From: a bacterium
GTDB taxonomy: Bacteria; UBP18; UBA7526
Assembly (NCBI GenBank): GCA_030619985.1
Contig: JAUXAI010000041.1
Coordinates: 1 to 11,178, forward strand
Length of the DNA stretch: 11,178 bases
Direction: 5' to 3'
The position numbers and the translations under genes were made by a program. The notes under the pieces are model-generated. The model worked only from the letters and a program-made list of their open reading frames with translations. It did not search any database and was not told where the DNA came from. Positions 2,454-9,680 of the stretch are shown one piece after another. Position 1 is the first letter of the stretch. The number at the start of each line of letters is the position of its first letter.

Positions 2454-5066
2454 TTATTTGGTGACAATATTTACCAATTTCTTAGGGACAACGACCACTC
2501 TTTTGATTCCCTTTCCCGAAATAAACTTCCTTACCTTTTCATCAGATAGGGCCTTCTCTTTTATCTCCTCACCACTTGAATCTATAGGAACCTTTATTCT
2601 GCTTCGGAGTTTTCCATCTACTTGAATGACGATTAGAATCTCCTTTTCTATAATTGCTTTTGGATTATAGGTTGGCCAATCCTTTTGGCCGATACTCGGT
2701 TTATTGCCTAAGATCTCCCAGAGTTCTTCACAGATATGGGGAGCGAAGGGAGAGAGTAATAGCACCACGGTTTCGATGGCTTCTTCTATTGTCTGCCTGT
2801 CTGCCCGTCTACCTGTCTGCCTGTCTTTATCTTTTGACTGGCTGACTGGCTGACTGGCTGACTGGCTGACTACTGAGTGAATGGCATTGACCAGTTCCAT
2901 AATGGCAGAGATGGCGGTATTGAAATGGAACCTCTTCTCAATATCCTCAGTCACCTTCTTAATTGTTTTATGGGTAATCCTTTTTAACTCAGTTTCGGGT
3001 TTCGGGTTTCGGGTTTCGGGTTTACCTTGTAAATTAGAAATTGCCCGCCCCGCTTTGCTTGGCGAGGCCGGGGGAAATTGGAAATTAAAATCATTAATTA
3101 ATCTCCATACCCTATTCAAGAACCTAAACGACCCTTCTACCCCTTCCGCGCTCCATTCTAAGTCTTTCTCTGGAGGAGAGGCAAAGAGGATGAAGAGCCG
3201 GGCGGTATCTGCACCATATTTATTCGTTATTTCATCGACAGAAACCACATTTCCTTTTGATTTGGACATCTTGGCCCCATCCTTTACCACCATTCCCTGA
3301 CAGAATAGTTTCTTAAAGGGCTCATCAATCTTATATAATCCTATGTCTCTCAAGGCCTTGGTGAAGAATCGAGCATACAAAAGATGCATGATGGCATGCT
3401 CTATTCCCCCAATATATTGATCAACGGGCATCCAGTAATCTATTCTCTTTTCATCAAAAGGTTTTTTGGTATAATCCGGGCTACAGTATCTGGAGAAGTA
3501 CCAAGAGGAGTCGACGAAGGTATCCATGGTATCCGTCTCTCTTCTTGCTTTCCCCTTACACTTAGGACATCTGCAATTTACAAATTCTCGACATTCTTCT
3601 AAGGGGTTACCCTTTCCGGTAAATTTAATGTCCTTCGGTAACTCTACTGGCAGGTTCTTTTCTGGAACAGGAACTACTCCGCACTTCTCACAGTAGATGA
3701 TGGGAATGGGGGTCCCCCAGTATCTCTGTCGAGATATGAGCCAGTCGCGCAACTTATACTGAACCGTCTTCTTTCCCCATCCCTTCTCTTCTAGGTAGGT
3801 GGTAATCTTCCCTTTGGCCTCTTCTGAGTTTAGGCCAGTGAATTGAGCAGAATTCATCATTATTCCTGGATTAACATAGGCCTCCTTTAAATCGGTGCTC
3901 AGTGGTCGCCCCGACGAGCGCGGAGAAGAAGGGTCGGGGTCTCCGCTTCGCTCCGAGAGTTCGGAGTTCGGGGGCATGATAACTTGTTTGATGGGGATAT
4001 TGTATTTTTTGGCGAACTCGAAGTCCCTCTGGTCATGGGCGGGAACGGCCATGATAATCCCTGTACCATATTCTAAGAGAACGAAGTTAGCCACATAGAT
4101 GGGGACCTCCTCATTGGTTAAGGGATTGATGGCGTACCTACCGATGAAGACCCCTTCCTTCTCCTTATCCTCTGCCGTTCTGGTAAATCGATCCTCCAGG
4201 ATTACTCTATTTATAAATTCCTTGACTTCTTTCTCATACTTTGTGCCCTCAACTAATTCTAAAGCCAAAGGATGTTCACAGGCCATGGTCATGAAGGTTA
4301 CGCCGTATAAAGTATCCGGCCGGGTAGTGAAGATAGGGAGGGTCTTGTCGCTATCTTTGAGTTTGAAGTTGACCAAAGTTCCAGTTGACTTTCCGATCCA
4401 GTTCTCTTGCATTAGTTTCACCCTCTCCGGCCATCCTTCTAACTTTTTTAAATCTCTTAATAATTCCTTAGCATATTCTGTAATCTTGAGGAACCACTGT
4501 TCCAGATCCTTTATCTCAACCCTTGATTCACATCTCCAGCACTTTCCATCTTCAACCTGCTCATTGGCCAGAACGGTCTGACATTTAGGACACCAGTTGA
4601 TGGGCGCCTTCTTCTTATAGGCCAACCCCCTCTCATAGAACTTCAAGAAGATCCACTGGTTCCATCTATAATAGTCTGGCTGAGAGGTAATGACCAGTCT
4701 ATTCCAGTCATAGGATAATCCCATCTTCTCCTGCTGCTTCCTCATATCAGAGATGCATTTTCTCGTCCATTCTGCAGGATGGGTCTTATTCTGCATGGCA
4801 GCATTCTCTGCGGGAAGGCCGAAGGAATCATAGCCCATGGGATATAATACATTATATCCCCTCATCCTCAAGAAGCGAGTTAGGGTATCGCCAACCACAT
4901 AGTTTCTCATATGGCCCATATGGAGCTTTCCAGATGGGTAAGGAAACATCTCTAAAAGATAGTACTTTTTCTTCTCAGGGTCTTCCTTGACTTTGAACTG
5001 GCTCTTCTTTCCCCAGTAATCCTGCCATTTTTTTTCAATCTTTCGGAAAGGATAGTATCTTCCCAT
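2454..5066 (-). CDS. leuS: Leucyl-tRNA synthetase, bacterial type, with three repeat-derived insertions
   Basis: Class I synthetase that charges tRNA-Leu in the cytoplasm. From the ATG at 5066 the protein has 870 residues, near the family norm. Visible parts: YPFRKIEKKWQ start, HMGH signature at 49-52, zinc-type cysteines 159/162 and 176/179, CP1 editing domain with TTRPDT at 247-252 and VPAHD at 341-345, a second Cys cluster 459-503, KMSKS at 599-603, and the C-terminal domain (IQVDGKLRSRI). All key motifs are intact, so it should be functional. The start at 5066 follows GGAGG with a 5-base gap; a longer reading frame reaches 5117 but runs through the promoter. Oddities are three low-complexity insertions at residues about 367-391, 662-693 and 734-759, each coinciding with repeat DNA. 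It is monocistronic from its own promoter or extends into lptE. Confidence 0.97.
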   Translation of the reverse strand: MGRYYPFRKIEKKWQDYWGKKSQFKVKEDPEKKKYYLLEMFPYPSGKLHMGHMRNYVVGDTLTRFLRMRGYNVLYPMGYDSFGLPAENAAMQNKTHPAEWTRKCISDMRKQQEKMGLSYDWNRLVITSQPDYYRWNQWIFLKFYERGLAYKKKAPINWCPKCQTVLANEQVEDGKCWRCESRVEIKDLEQWFLKITEYAKELLRDLKKLEGWPERVKLMQENWIGKSTGTLVNFKLKDSDKTLPIFTTRPDTLYGVTFMTMACEHPLALELVEGTKYEKEVKEFINRVILEDRFTRTAEDKEKEGVFIGRYAINPLTNEEVPIYVANFVLLEYGTGIIMAVPAHDQRDFEFAKKYNIPIKQVIMPPNSELSERSGDPDPSSPRSSGRPLSTDLKEAYVNPGIMMNSAQFTGLNSEEAKGKITTYLEEKGWGKKTVQYKLRDWLISRQRYWGTPIPIIYCEKCGVVPVPEKNLPVELPKDIKFTGKGNPLEECREFVNCRCPKCKGKARRETDTMDTFVDSSWYFSRYCSPDYTKKPFDEKRIDYWMPVDQYIGGIEHAIMHLLYARFFTKALRDIGLYKIDEPFKKLFCQGMVVKDGAKMSKSKGNVVSVDEITNKYGADTARLFILFASPPEKDLEWSAEGVEGSFRFLNRVWRLINDFNFQFPPASPSKAGRAISNLQGKPETRNPKPETELKRITHKTIKKVTEDIEKRFHFNTAISAIMELVNAIHSVVSQSASQPVSQSKDKDRQTGRRADRQTIEEAIETVVLLLSPFAPHICEELWEILGNKPSIGQKDWPTYNPKAIIEKEILIVIQVDGKLRSRIKVPIDSSGEEIKEKALSDEKVRKFISGKGIKRVVVVPKKLVNIVTK
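2790..2871. repeat. Two 8-bp tandem repeat arrays inside leuS
   Basis: The plus strand shows GTCTGCCT-type units four times at 2791-2822, with single-base variants, then after a short spacer GACTGGCT four and a half times at 2836-2871. Because 8 is not a multiple of 3, each set of three units gives an eight-residue protein period; residues 734-759 of leuS read SQSASQPVSQS followed by DRQTGRRADRQT. The frame is open across both arrays. They fall in a surface-loop position of the helical anticodon-binding domain. Confidence 0.9.
2988..3087. repeat. 7-bp tandem repeat plus GC-rich core inside leuS
   Basis: GTTTCGG is repeated four times at 2992-3019 and continues as GTTTA. It is followed by AAATTAGAAATT (3031-3042), a GC-rich core, and AAATTGGAAATT (3075-3086), so the core sits between near-identical direct repeats. 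On the coding strand the tandem gives KPETRNPKPETE. The whole block encodes about residues 662-693, between RVWRLI and the ITHKTI helix, where this loop is roughly 13 residues longer than my recollection of the E. coli enzyme. Confidence 0.85.
3894..3975. repeat. Palindromic GC-rich element inside the leuS editing domain
   Basis: This block encodes residues about 367-391 (SELSERSGDPDPSSPRSSGR), rich in Ser, Pro, Arg and Asp and unlike the surrounding enzyme. At DNA level it is strongly self-complementary. CTCCGA at 3951-3956 pairs with TCGGAG at 3961-3966 around GAGT; CCCCGAC near 3910 pairs with GTCGGGG; GAGCG...CGGAG pairs with CTCCG...CGCTC. It also contains GCTTCGC at 3945-3951, the complement of the GCGAAGC mini-hairpin core. 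Confidence 0.75.
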
Positions 5067-5071
5067 TCTCG

Positions 5072-5076
5072 CCTCC
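5072..5076 (-). promoter_or_regulatory. Shine-Dalgarno GGAGG deciding the leuS start
   Basis: On the minus strand GGAGG lies five bases before the ATG at 5066 and overlaps an in-frame upstream ATG at 5078. That upstream ATG has no ribosome site of its own, so translation should begin at 5066 with MGRYYPFRK. Confidence 0.8.
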
Positions 5077-5088
5077 ATTAATTTGATT

Positions 5089-5117
5089 AGTATAGCATAA
5101 ATAAGACCTTTTTGCAA
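5089..5117 (-). promoter_or_regulatory. leuS sigma-70-type promoter
   Basis: Minus-strand TTGCAA (5112-5117), a 17-base spacer and TATACT (5089-5094). The start site would be about 15-20 bases before the leuS ATG, leaving no room for a T-box or other leader control. TAACGGGGC lies immediately upstream of the -35 box, as it also does at the DUF1284 promoter. Confidence 0.75.
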
Positions 5118-5228
5118 GCCCCGTTAGAAAATTCTTTAGCTAAGGTGATATTTGCTATTTAAATGCAATCATTCTCTTAAAACGCAGTATTTAGAGAATG
5201 TGTCTATTAAGATTTCTAAAGGGGCAAG
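5115..5228. repeat. Split GCCCCGTTA palindrome in the leuS-bioY spacer
   Basis: CAAGCCCCGTTAGAAA (5115-5130) and TTTCTAAAGGGGCAAG (5213-5228) are near-perfect inverted copies enclosing about 80 AT-rich bases. Inside is another hairpin (5171-5181 with 5190-5199, one bulge). The right copy, 5207-5229, matches 7237-7259 at 21 of 23 positions, so this is a dispersed family. No gene is visible. Confidence 0.65.
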
Positions 5229-5232
5229 TTTT

Positions 5233-5264
5233 AAAAAAAGAGCCACTAAACAAGTTAGCGGCTC
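5233..5264 (-). terminator. Intrinsic terminator of bioY
   Basis: On the minus strand, about 30 bases after the bioY stop, GAGCCGCTAA pairs with TTAGTGGCTC (ten pairs, one G-U) across a five-base loop and is followed by seven T. This is a textbook Rho-independent terminator and separates bioY from leuS. Confidence 0.9.
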
Positions 5265-5293
5265 TAAAGATTCTAAGCAGGGTGTGAAGCCGG

Positions 5294-5899
5294 CTACCGA
5301 GGAAAAATCTGACCTGCCCGATCTTGAAGTTTACAGTAGATGCTGGCAGCAGCGAATAACTTCAGGATGTCACCGGGGAGGAAAGGAAGTATTCCCAAAA
5401 GGAACGCTTTTCCAATTCCCAAGTGAAGAACCAGGGCAAGATGAATGGCCCCCAGGAGAAGAATAATTAAGGAACCCAGAACCATGGCCAGGACCGTCTG
5501 GCCAAAACCGGCTCTTTCTTTATTACTGAGCACCTTCCCAATTATATAGGCGGCAAGGATGAATCCTAAAAGATATCCGCCTGTAGGGCCAAAAAGAGGG
5601 ATTAAGCCACCTGTGGCGCCAGCAAAGATGGGAAAACCCAAACTTCCCAGGAATACGTACCCCAATTGGCTCAAAGCTCCCAACCTCTTGCCCAATAGGG
5701 CTCCAGCCAACAAGACGAAGAAGGTCTGGAGGGTAATGGGAACCGGGGTAAAGGGAATGGGAATCCTGACAAAGGCTCCCAGAGCAGTGAAGGCGATGAA
5801 GATGCCTATCCCAATCAGGGCACAGCCGATTCTATTAGTGACTACTTCCCGATTTCCGATTTTCCATAACTGATCCCATGTTTTTTCAATAACGACCAT
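5294..5899 (-). CDS. bioY: BioY family biotin transporter (ECF S component)
   Basis: Integral membrane protein that binds and imports biotin, alone or with an ECF energising module (BioMN/EcfAAT). The 201-residue product has about six hydrophobic helices. It also has the BioY-type stretches VRIPIPFTPVPITLQTFFVL, LLAGALLG, then FGPTGGYLLGF in the middle and LPFLPGDILKL near the end. The ATG at 5899 is chosen because AGGAGG lies eight bases upstream; an in-frame GTG at 5908 overlaps that ribosome site. No bioM/bioN or energising genes are in view, so it probably shares a module encoded elsewhere. A BirA-type operator (TTGTAAACC half sites) is not visible. It has its own promoter and terminator but could also receive readthrough from the barrel gene, whose stop is 49 bases upstream. 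Confidence 0.93.
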   Translation of the reverse strand: MVVIEKTWDQLWKIGNREVVTNRIGCALIGIGIFIAFTALGAFVRIPIPFTPVPITLQTFFVLLAGALLGKRLGALSQLGYVFLGSLGFPIFAGATGGLIPLFGPTGGYLLGFILAAYIIGKVLSNKERAGFGQTVLAMVLGSLIILLLGAIHLALVLHLGIGKAFLLGILPFLPGDILKLFAAASIYCKLQDRAGQIFPR

Positions 5900-7201: not shown

Positions 7202-7230
7202 ATGATAAAACAAACTTTTCTATTTGTCAA
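7202..7230 (-). promoter_or_regulatory. Promoter of the DUF1284-barrel operon
   Basis: Minus-strand TTGACA (7225-7230), exactly 17 bases, TATCAT (7202-7207), followed by AAT. The -35 box directly abuts the palindrome at 7231-7255. Confidence 0.8.
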
Positions 7231-7255
7231 GCCCCGTTAAGATTTTTAACGGGGC
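7231..7255. promoter_or_regulatory. 10-bp perfect palindrome between divergent promoters
   Basis: GCCCCGTTAA (7231-7240), five-base spacer, TTAACGGGGC (7246-7255). It sits between the two outward-facing -35 boxes (7225-7230 and 7265-7270). It could be an operator for a dimeric regulator acting on both promoters, or a copy of the dispersed palindrome family also seen at 5115-5228. Confidence 0.55.
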
Positions 7256-7264
7256 AAGTATTTC

Positions 7265-7306: not shown

Positions 7307-7382
<76 letters not shown>

Positions 7383-7384
7383 TA

Positions 7385-7444
7385 ACACGGATGCACACAG
7401 ATAACAGCACGGATTGACACAGATTTATCCATAATTATCCGTGT
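7385..7444. repeat. CACGGAT/CACAGAT repeat cluster after the tRNA
   Basis: ACACGGAT (7385-7392), ACACAGAT, GCACGGAT (7407-7414) and a further ACACAGAT, closed by the inverted ATCCGTGT (7437-7444). The ends are perfect 8-bp inverted repeats. Related motifs occur at 2163-2206 and 9506-9563, always between genes. ATCCGTGT appears once more at 7477-7484. Confidence 0.65.
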
Positions 7445-7486
7445 ATTTAATCCTAAATAGTGAGCAGAACAAAGAAATCCGTGTCT

Positions 7487-9505: not shown

Positions 9506-9680
9506 ACACGGATTTCTTTTTACCGCTTATTGCGTTAGTTTAAAAACACGGATGGTCACGGATAAATTATAAGCGCGCCTGTCCGTCCGATCGCCTCTGG
9601 CGGACGGACGGAAATTATTGCGAACATTATAACTGCAAAGACGCAAAATTTAATTTAAAAACGCAAAACTGAGATTCCTT
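9506..9680. repeat. Repeat-filled leader before the coiled-coil gene
   Basis: Gene-free spacer 9493-9726. It holds ACACGGAT at 9506-9513 and 9546-9553, and TCACGGAT at 9556-9563. A hairpin of GTCCGTCCG (9581-9589) with CGGACGGAC (9602-9610) has an inner GCC/GGC extension. Two ACGCAAAA motifs lie around 9640-9668. It would lie in the 5' untranslated region if the 9694-9722 promoter is used. Confidence 0.6.

Follow-up and report, generated by a model that had tools for sequence, protein, structure and literature searches.

Short coding repeats in three loops of a bacterial leuS gene, probably part of a family-wide repeat population

Repeat blocks within an intact leuS gene

The window, by which we mean the whole stretch of 11,178 nucleotides analyzed here, comes from a 1.25-Mb draft genome (G000; 91 contigs, 84% complete), in which contig 50 holds all 11178 of its bases. 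It contains leuS, encoding leucyl-tRNA synthetase (LeuRS), and short repeats interrupt this gene in frame at three sites:

2457..5117, minus strand: leuS, leucyl-tRNA synthetase, 887 aa as listed (TIGR00396; tblastn to relatives)
3957..3971, minus strand: site 1, remnant 7-bp array (CCGAACT)2.1, left of the palindrome (TRF)
3909..3956, minus strand: site 1, 48-bp palindromic element PE1 within the array (dispersal, compensatory stem changes)
3890..3908, minus strand: site 1, degenerate ACCGATC-like remnant, right of PE1 (sequence comparison)
3029..3086, minus strand: site 2, AATTTCC-type 7-bp array interrupted by a GC palindrome (palindrome family; in-phase array on both sides)
3043-3073, minus strand: site 2, the GC palindrome CCCCGGCCTCGCCAAGCAAAGCGGGGCGGGC, 31 bp (palindrome family)
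2992..3023, minus strand: site 2, (AAACCCG)4.6 array (TRF, 100% matches; common to the sister genome G002)
2791..2870, minus strand: site 3, hairpin with the octamer arrays (AGTCAGCC)4.6 and (AGACAGGC)4.6 as its arms (DNA fold, TRF)

The gene product scores 1099.5 bits in a profile search against the TIGR00396 equivalog (cut-off 548), and its catalytic, editing, and anticodon regions are complete by TIGR00396, by alignment to 1h3n, and in an AlphaFold2 model. An earlier note, made from the window alone, had described three repeat blocks in frame in a complete leuS, and all of them are present by TRF and the profile score. The listed start codon is TTG, and the conserved protein starts near the ATG at 5064-5066, residue 18. 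Numbered from the listed TTG, sites 1, 2, and 3 span residues of about 383-409, 678-709, and 749-776; the ranges of the earlier note agree if counted from the internal Met18 and are 17 off if counted from the TTG. From the 1h3n alignment, we assign site 1 to the editing domain; sites 2 and 3 both fall between helices of the anticodon-binding bundle. The AlphaFold2 model has a mean pLDDT of 86.7, and its only segments of at least 3 residues with pLDDT below 50 are 14-18, 387-393, 397-407, 685-704, and 765-769, all of which fall inside the three sites save the N-terminal extension (14-18). The repeats thus occupy loops of low model confidence, which are probably flexible.

At site 1, array remnants lie on both sides of PE1 (TCGGAGCGAAGCGGAGACCCCGAC...GTCGGGG, encoding the peptide SERSGDPDPSSPRSSGR). 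CCGAACT also forms an array elsewhere in G000 and in G002, and the ACCGATC-like remnant matches an intact (ACCGATC)4.9 array at the same site of a more distant relative (G005). PE1 is dispersed: it is present in six of six family genomes and recurs within G000, where one copy lies in another ORF, a PseC-like aminotransferase gene, in the same reading frame as in leuS. Both the 7-bp stem and the mini-stem GCGAAGC are retained in its copies; pairing holds in 99.3% of stem cells, and six cells are double-changed versus 1.7 in shuffles. Changes in the PE1 stem are compensatory. We considered GCGAAGC as a general apical loop and rejected it; the motif is found in PE1 and in the site-2 family, yet it is not dominant in a tally of all stems.

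At site 2, the (AAACCCG)4.6 array encodes GKPETRNPKPETE, and the family of the neighboring palindrome is represented in five of six family genomes. Between G000 and G002 this block (window 2997-3086 compared with L004) differs at 1 of 90 bases, versus 116 of 1000 (about 11%) elsewhere in leuS. Such near-identity suggests either recent exchange or conservation under strong constraint, so some blocks appear to be conserved or recently exchanged.

At site 3, TRF reports two 8-bp arrays (2790-2826 and 2835-2871) that pair as the arms of a single hairpin, forming nine 3-bp helices with single mismatches between them. The DNA folds at −18.1 kcal/mol (z −10.5), and 0 of 200 shuffles were equally stable. 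The earlier note had read the three blocks as unrelated repeat types; they are instead versions of a single composite design, in which about 4.5 tandem units of 7 or 8 bp may be joined by a nested GC palindrome or a complementary second array. The two tandems at site 3 belong to the same hairpin, each forming one arm. We also rejected a single dispersed sequence at all three sites, as in G000 the exact AAACCCG and AGTCAGCC units turned up in leuS alone. The expectation that the blocks recur elsewhere in the genome fails for these units; it holds for the site-1 palindrome in G000 and for the site-2 palindrome in relatives. What is shared genome-wide is the kind of repeat and a set of related words, rather than the exact site-2 and site-3 units.

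The same loops in relatives

We compared leuS with that of two genomes of the same genus (G001, G002), one of the same family (G005), and a further one (G003) covered at sites 2 and 3 only; all are drafts, and the family genomes compared here are mostly incomplete. LeuRS of G001, G002, and G005 is 85-87% identical to that of the window (tblastn to relatives gives 82-85%), and the differences gather at the three loops. In 12 of 12 site-by-species combinations (G000, G001, G002, G005) the coding strand of the loop contains an array of 7- or 8-bp units, and the words mostly differ:

Site 1: PE1 and CCGAACT (G000); (TCAGATA)3.3 (G002); (ACCGATC)4.9 (G005); (ACCGTTC)3.9 (G001)
Site 2: split AATTTCC and AAACCCG (G000, G002); AGTTAACC and AAACCGGC (G005); GCCACAA (G001)
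Site 3: (AGTCAGCC)/(AGACAGGC) (G000); (CAAAACT)5.1 and (AACTCCG)4.3 (G002); (AGTTAACC)/(AAACCGGC) (G005, G001)

G003 has further arrays at sites 2 and 3, including a CACAGTT-like array at site 3. Close relatives therefore offer no conserved, non-repetitive version of these loops, in keeping with the earlier reading; these loops contain repeats in the relatives too, mostly not those of the window. In the nearest outgroups (L007, L033, L034), the three sites are short loops of the ordinary kind. Between fixed anchors, sites 1, 2, and 3 comprise 56, 58, and 59 residues in the window and 36, 40, and 40 in the nearest outgroup (G072/L007). The loops are thus lengthened, as had been proposed, by about 18-20 aa per site relative to the outgroup and not by the suggested 10-15.

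The hairpin at site 3 has a related counterpart in G001 and G005, in which AGTTAACC is combined with AAACCGGC. Comparing the window with these two, GTT -> GTC is seen in every unit of one arm and AAC -> GAC in every unit of the other, changes that are concerted and compensatory. Hairpins of the AGTTAACC/AAACCGGC type make up a dispersed family, matched at about 80 places in six genomes; inspection of 27 copies placed 14 in ORFs, for the most part in a single reading frame (type VTQLPSYPVTQFKTGKPANRQTGK), with members in leuS, ksgA, ribE, and other genes. Arm length is constant at about 4.5 units, and the whole element measures about 75-96 bp.

Not every array lengthens its host protein. In three relatives, site 1 has 38-39 residues, a length usual among about 100 LeuRS, although it is array-built; in ahcY, a G002 array replaces 19 native-looking residues of G000 with length unchanged; and at site a of purH, four species have repeat-like peptides of one fixed length. 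Because length is little or not changed in these three cases, a small sample, arrays can replace native loop residues as well as insert. The earlier idea of a process adding loops to proteins accordingly holds for the extended leuS loops and not for ahcY, purH site a, or leuS site 1 of the three relatives. purH also has an intact (ATCACCG)4.9 array in G000 where G002 has the same array split by a palindrome, a pattern seen at two separate sites.

Two Nitrospirae MAGs, unrelated bacteria, also have arrays in leuS, (GTCAACG)5.1 in L078 at about 6065 and (AGAGCAGA)4.4 in L099 at about 6078, both in the same editing-domain loop as site 1. This suggests convergent tolerance of that loop.

A genome-wide population of arrays and palindromes

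We surveyed 643 kb of G000 (about half of the genome) and 587 kb of G002 (40%), calling genes as longest ORFs, which makes the ORF and intergenic fractions approximate. Tandem arrays occur at about 51 (G000) and 59 (G002) per 100 kb with peaks at periods 7, 8, and their multiples, while first-order Markov shuffles gave 10 arrays in 207 kb, spread over periods. Because shuffles are far poorer in arrays, and given the z-score of the site-3 hairpin, the arrays are not due to chance. With a stricter cut, 7/8-bp arrays number 20.8 (G000) and 24.2 (G002) per 100 kb versus 2.5 in 106 distant bacterial loci. This density (21-24 per 100 kb) and the dozens of genes with in-frame arrays substantiate the genome-wide process that the earlier note had suspected.

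Intergenic DNA makes up 11% of the sequence, yet it holds about 55-60% of the 7/8-family arrays. Within ORFs, we found 44 arrays in 32 of 629 ORFs in G000 (5.1%) and 54 in 40 of 550 in G002 (7.3%); the genes that could be named are leuS, purH, eno, ahcY, ksgA, ribE, and cobT. Arrays are clustered, with ten genes bearing at least two in each genome versus 1.8 (G000) and 3.2 (G002) expected. In-gene heptamers are stop-free on the coding strand in 40 of 48 cases and on the opposite strand in 22 of 48. Array length peaks at 30-33 bp for heptamers and 36-37 bp for octamers, about 4.5 units. The 46 heptamer arrays of G000 fall into 25 word classes, 17 of them common to G002, and a one-mismatch neighbor exists for 83% of heptamers and 72% of octamers versus 53% and 21% of shuffled words. 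Of 386 genomes, 7 contain AACTCCG arrays, four in the family (G000, G002, G003, G005) and three outside it (G175, G245, G340); they are mainly lineage-bound, and we rejected words common across bacteria as an account. We likewise do not regard assembly artefact as the main cause: at 30-37 bp the arrays are far shorter than usual reads, their flanks are conserved, and arrays stand at the same loops in separately binned relatives.

As a class, arrays are scarcely more stable when folded than random windows (median z: −0.29 for arrays in genes, −0.86 for intergenic arrays, and −0.21 for random windows), which disposes of the idea that all arrays are strong hairpins; for this reason we argue for hairpin templating of paired octamers only. 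Among adjacent array pairs, of which only 21 were testable, an inverted match was seen in 43% versus 15%. In the PE1 and site-2 palindrome families, the flanking array often runs on in phase across the palindrome, and 28% of copies have a perfect unit on both sides versus 3.5% in mispaired controls.

In 245 reciprocal-best orthologue pairs (mean identity 91%), we found 29 internal stretches that diverge and include an indel of 4 aa or more. In 14 of these, the array or hairpin is stronger than in 99% of background coding DNA, and the other 15 are without a detectable repeat; two of the 29 are clean insertions of the 26-bp palindrome described below. Syntenic spacers are either conserved or wholly exchanged for different repeat words.

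In the window itself, spacers at 1456-1580, 2160-2452, 7381-7450, and 9574-9612 consist of similar short words (including AGTTGGTT..., CACAGATT..., and ACACGGAT...), inverted repeats, and GC palindromes. Those at 5118-5297 (GCCCCGTTAGAAA...TTTCTAAAGGGGC) and 7230-7258 (GCCCCGTTAAGATTTTTAACGGGGC), beside leuS and the tRNA gene, look like more palindromic elements. An Rfam search of the window returned one tRNA and no other known RNA family. A spacer at another locus (L113:6852-7032) holds a MITE-like element with ends CCCCGCACC/GGTGCGGGG and TGAA on either side, conserved between G000 and G002.

Origin of the loops and comparison with known repeat systems

We consider it likely that the leuS blocks are local cases of a family-wide and genome-wide population of short repeats that turns over between species. 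This population comprises 7-/8-bp arrays of ~4.5 units, GC palindromes of 26-57 bp often set in phase in arrays, and hairpins with complementary octamer arms. Such elements would fill and replace intergenic spacers; they would also invade ORFs, surviving in tolerant surface loops if the word brings no stop codon on the coding strand and leaves the frame intact. The word would change in concert along an array and between hairpin arms, palindromes would be gained by or lost from arrays, and related elements would arise at other genes. Turnover of arrays at the loops would therefore leave different repeat peptides in the same loop of sister species. Within this account, the repeats and their frame, dispersal, nesting, turnover between species, compensatory changes, and placement in low-confidence loops are all observed. 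Concerted change could proceed via slippage together with template switching on hairpins, as reported for quasipalindromes (PMC7202029, PMC8794818, PMC8604942), and spread could proceed via transposition or short-patch recombination. We argue for hairpin-templated copying mainly because of the concerted and compensatory arm changes at site 3, and our best inference is hairpin-templated concerted evolution with selection for frame. Weighing against the overall account are the near-identity of the site-2 block in G000 and G002, the 15 of 29 indels lacking a detectable repeat, the weak folding of arrays as a class, and the absence of RAYT and reverse transcriptase from the six mostly incomplete family drafts. 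Neutral tolerance is enough to account for the loops, and no protein function need be assigned to them; literature searches on encoded loop peptides and on short-patch recombination returned nothing relevant. More tentatively, an undescribed process in this family may overwrite coding stretches with length-matched 7/8-bp arrays and then rewrite the loops by hairpin-templated concerted change. If true, it would be a natural loop-shuffling engine acting on essential enzymes.

It is rather doubtful that every element is a MITE mobilized by a transposase encoded in an unassembled part of the genome or not recognized, even though some observations are of that kind. A 26-bp palindrome (CCCCGCCC.TGCA.GCA.GAGCGGGG) has entered two genes cleanly and in frame (L196:8968-9915, L179:16636-17592) with apparent 4-bp target duplications (TAAA, TGAA), an intergenic relative has the ends CCCCGCACC/GGTGCGGGG and TGAA flanks, and PE1 is dispersed across the family. 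However, PE1 and the site-2 palindrome sit in phase with arrays, with no clear duplication separable from the array unit, and terminal repeats are absent at array-only sites. Y1 transposase/RAYT (PF01797) was absent from six of six family genomes, mostly incomplete drafts, and present in 5 of 14 controls; reverse transcriptase (PF00078) was absent from the same six mostly incomplete drafts. On this ground we rejected mobility driven by a RAYT or a reverse transcriptase.

Ordinary replication slippage at tolerant loops, with arrays grown in place from local sequence and no mobile component, is unlikely. It would fit the confinement of many units to one locus, the one-mismatch network expected if words mutate in place, and the clustering of arrays in a few tolerant genes (10 with at least two versus 1.8 expected), but array length peaks at about 4.5 units with no fall-off from the detection limit, the same words stand at unrelated loci (46 arrays in 25 classes, 17 shared with the sister), and a composite 75-bp hairpin whose arms do not vary in length has copies at many loci and in many genes. 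Least probable is that arrays are kept for new binding or regulatory properties of LeuRS and other enzymes, a role proposed before for Borg repeats and for disordered regions: frame is maintained over several species and the site-2 block is nearly identical in G000 and G002, but most sister species have wholly different peptides in a loop whose position stays the same, and intergenic DNA is filled by the same words.

Taking the leuS blocks as part of a repeat population that turns over between species, we see in this lineage a natural, genome-wide process that goes on rewriting protein loops of essential enzymes. Repeats within bacterial genes usually bring to mind phase-variable surface proteins or rare insertions. 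In the present small-genome lineage, roughly one of every fourteen to twenty ORFs has in-frame repeats, among them those for LeuRS, PurH, enolase, KsgA, and riboflavin synthase. This makes testable both the origin of new protein segments from selfish or non-coding DNA and the question of which essential-enzyme loops tolerate arbitrary sequence. Automated gene finding and alignment may misread repeat-derived segments.

The STRR heptanucleotide arrays of filamentous cyanobacteria consist of few 7-bp units and are mostly intergenic, with some in ORFs, and short 7-bp arrays both between and in genes are found here as well. The TAACTGA arrays of Beggiatoaceae are similar in having a few 7-bp units, mostly intergenic with some in ORFs; there, the whole genome uses one word, and the copies in ORFs are found chiefly at the ends of proteins (PMC4679880). 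Here, by contrast, there are dozens of words (25 heptamer classes among 46 arrays in G000), arrays lie within conserved enzymes, and words differ between species. Borgs, archaeal extrachromosomal elements, share fast-evolving tandem repeats in and between genes and disordered protein stretches; all of their ORF units are divisible by three (PMC9879509), unlike the 7- and 8-bp units here. REP sequences (CGTC- and GTAG-tagged palindromes) are 20-40 bp, GC-rich, and accompanied by RAYT (PMC3733652), and resemble our palindromes in being GC-rich, mostly intergenic, and in some cases within genes. They differ in that RAYT was not found in six family genomes, and nesting in 7/8-bp arrays, distinctive here, is unmentioned in the abstract of PMC3733652. 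PARCEL elements are also palindromic coding repeats moved within and between genomes; they encode amphipathic repeats of 25 residues that follow one another in tandem within proteins lacking an assigned function (PMC2996958), unlike one short array in the loop of a housekeeping enzyme.

The closest parallel is with Rickettsia palindromic elements (RPE), about 150 bp long (Ogata et al. 2000, 2002, summarised in PMC10969869). Shared features are dispersed palindromes in frame in unrelated, often essential genes, a peptide in one recurrent frame, and a fold-compatible site. The likeness drawn in the earlier note stands for in-frame dispersal in unrelated genes (PE1 in leuS and the PseC-like gene; the hairpin family in leuS, ksgA, and ribE) and breaks down for length, which is 26-96 bp here (PE1 48, site-2 palindrome 31, hairpin about 75-96) as against about 100-150 bp. 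Also unlike RPE, several families and 7/8-bp arrays occur together in one gene, palindromes are nested, and the loop repeat differs between sisters. The repeats of this family thus work like RPE without being members, and they are best called a new variant of in-frame coding repeats.
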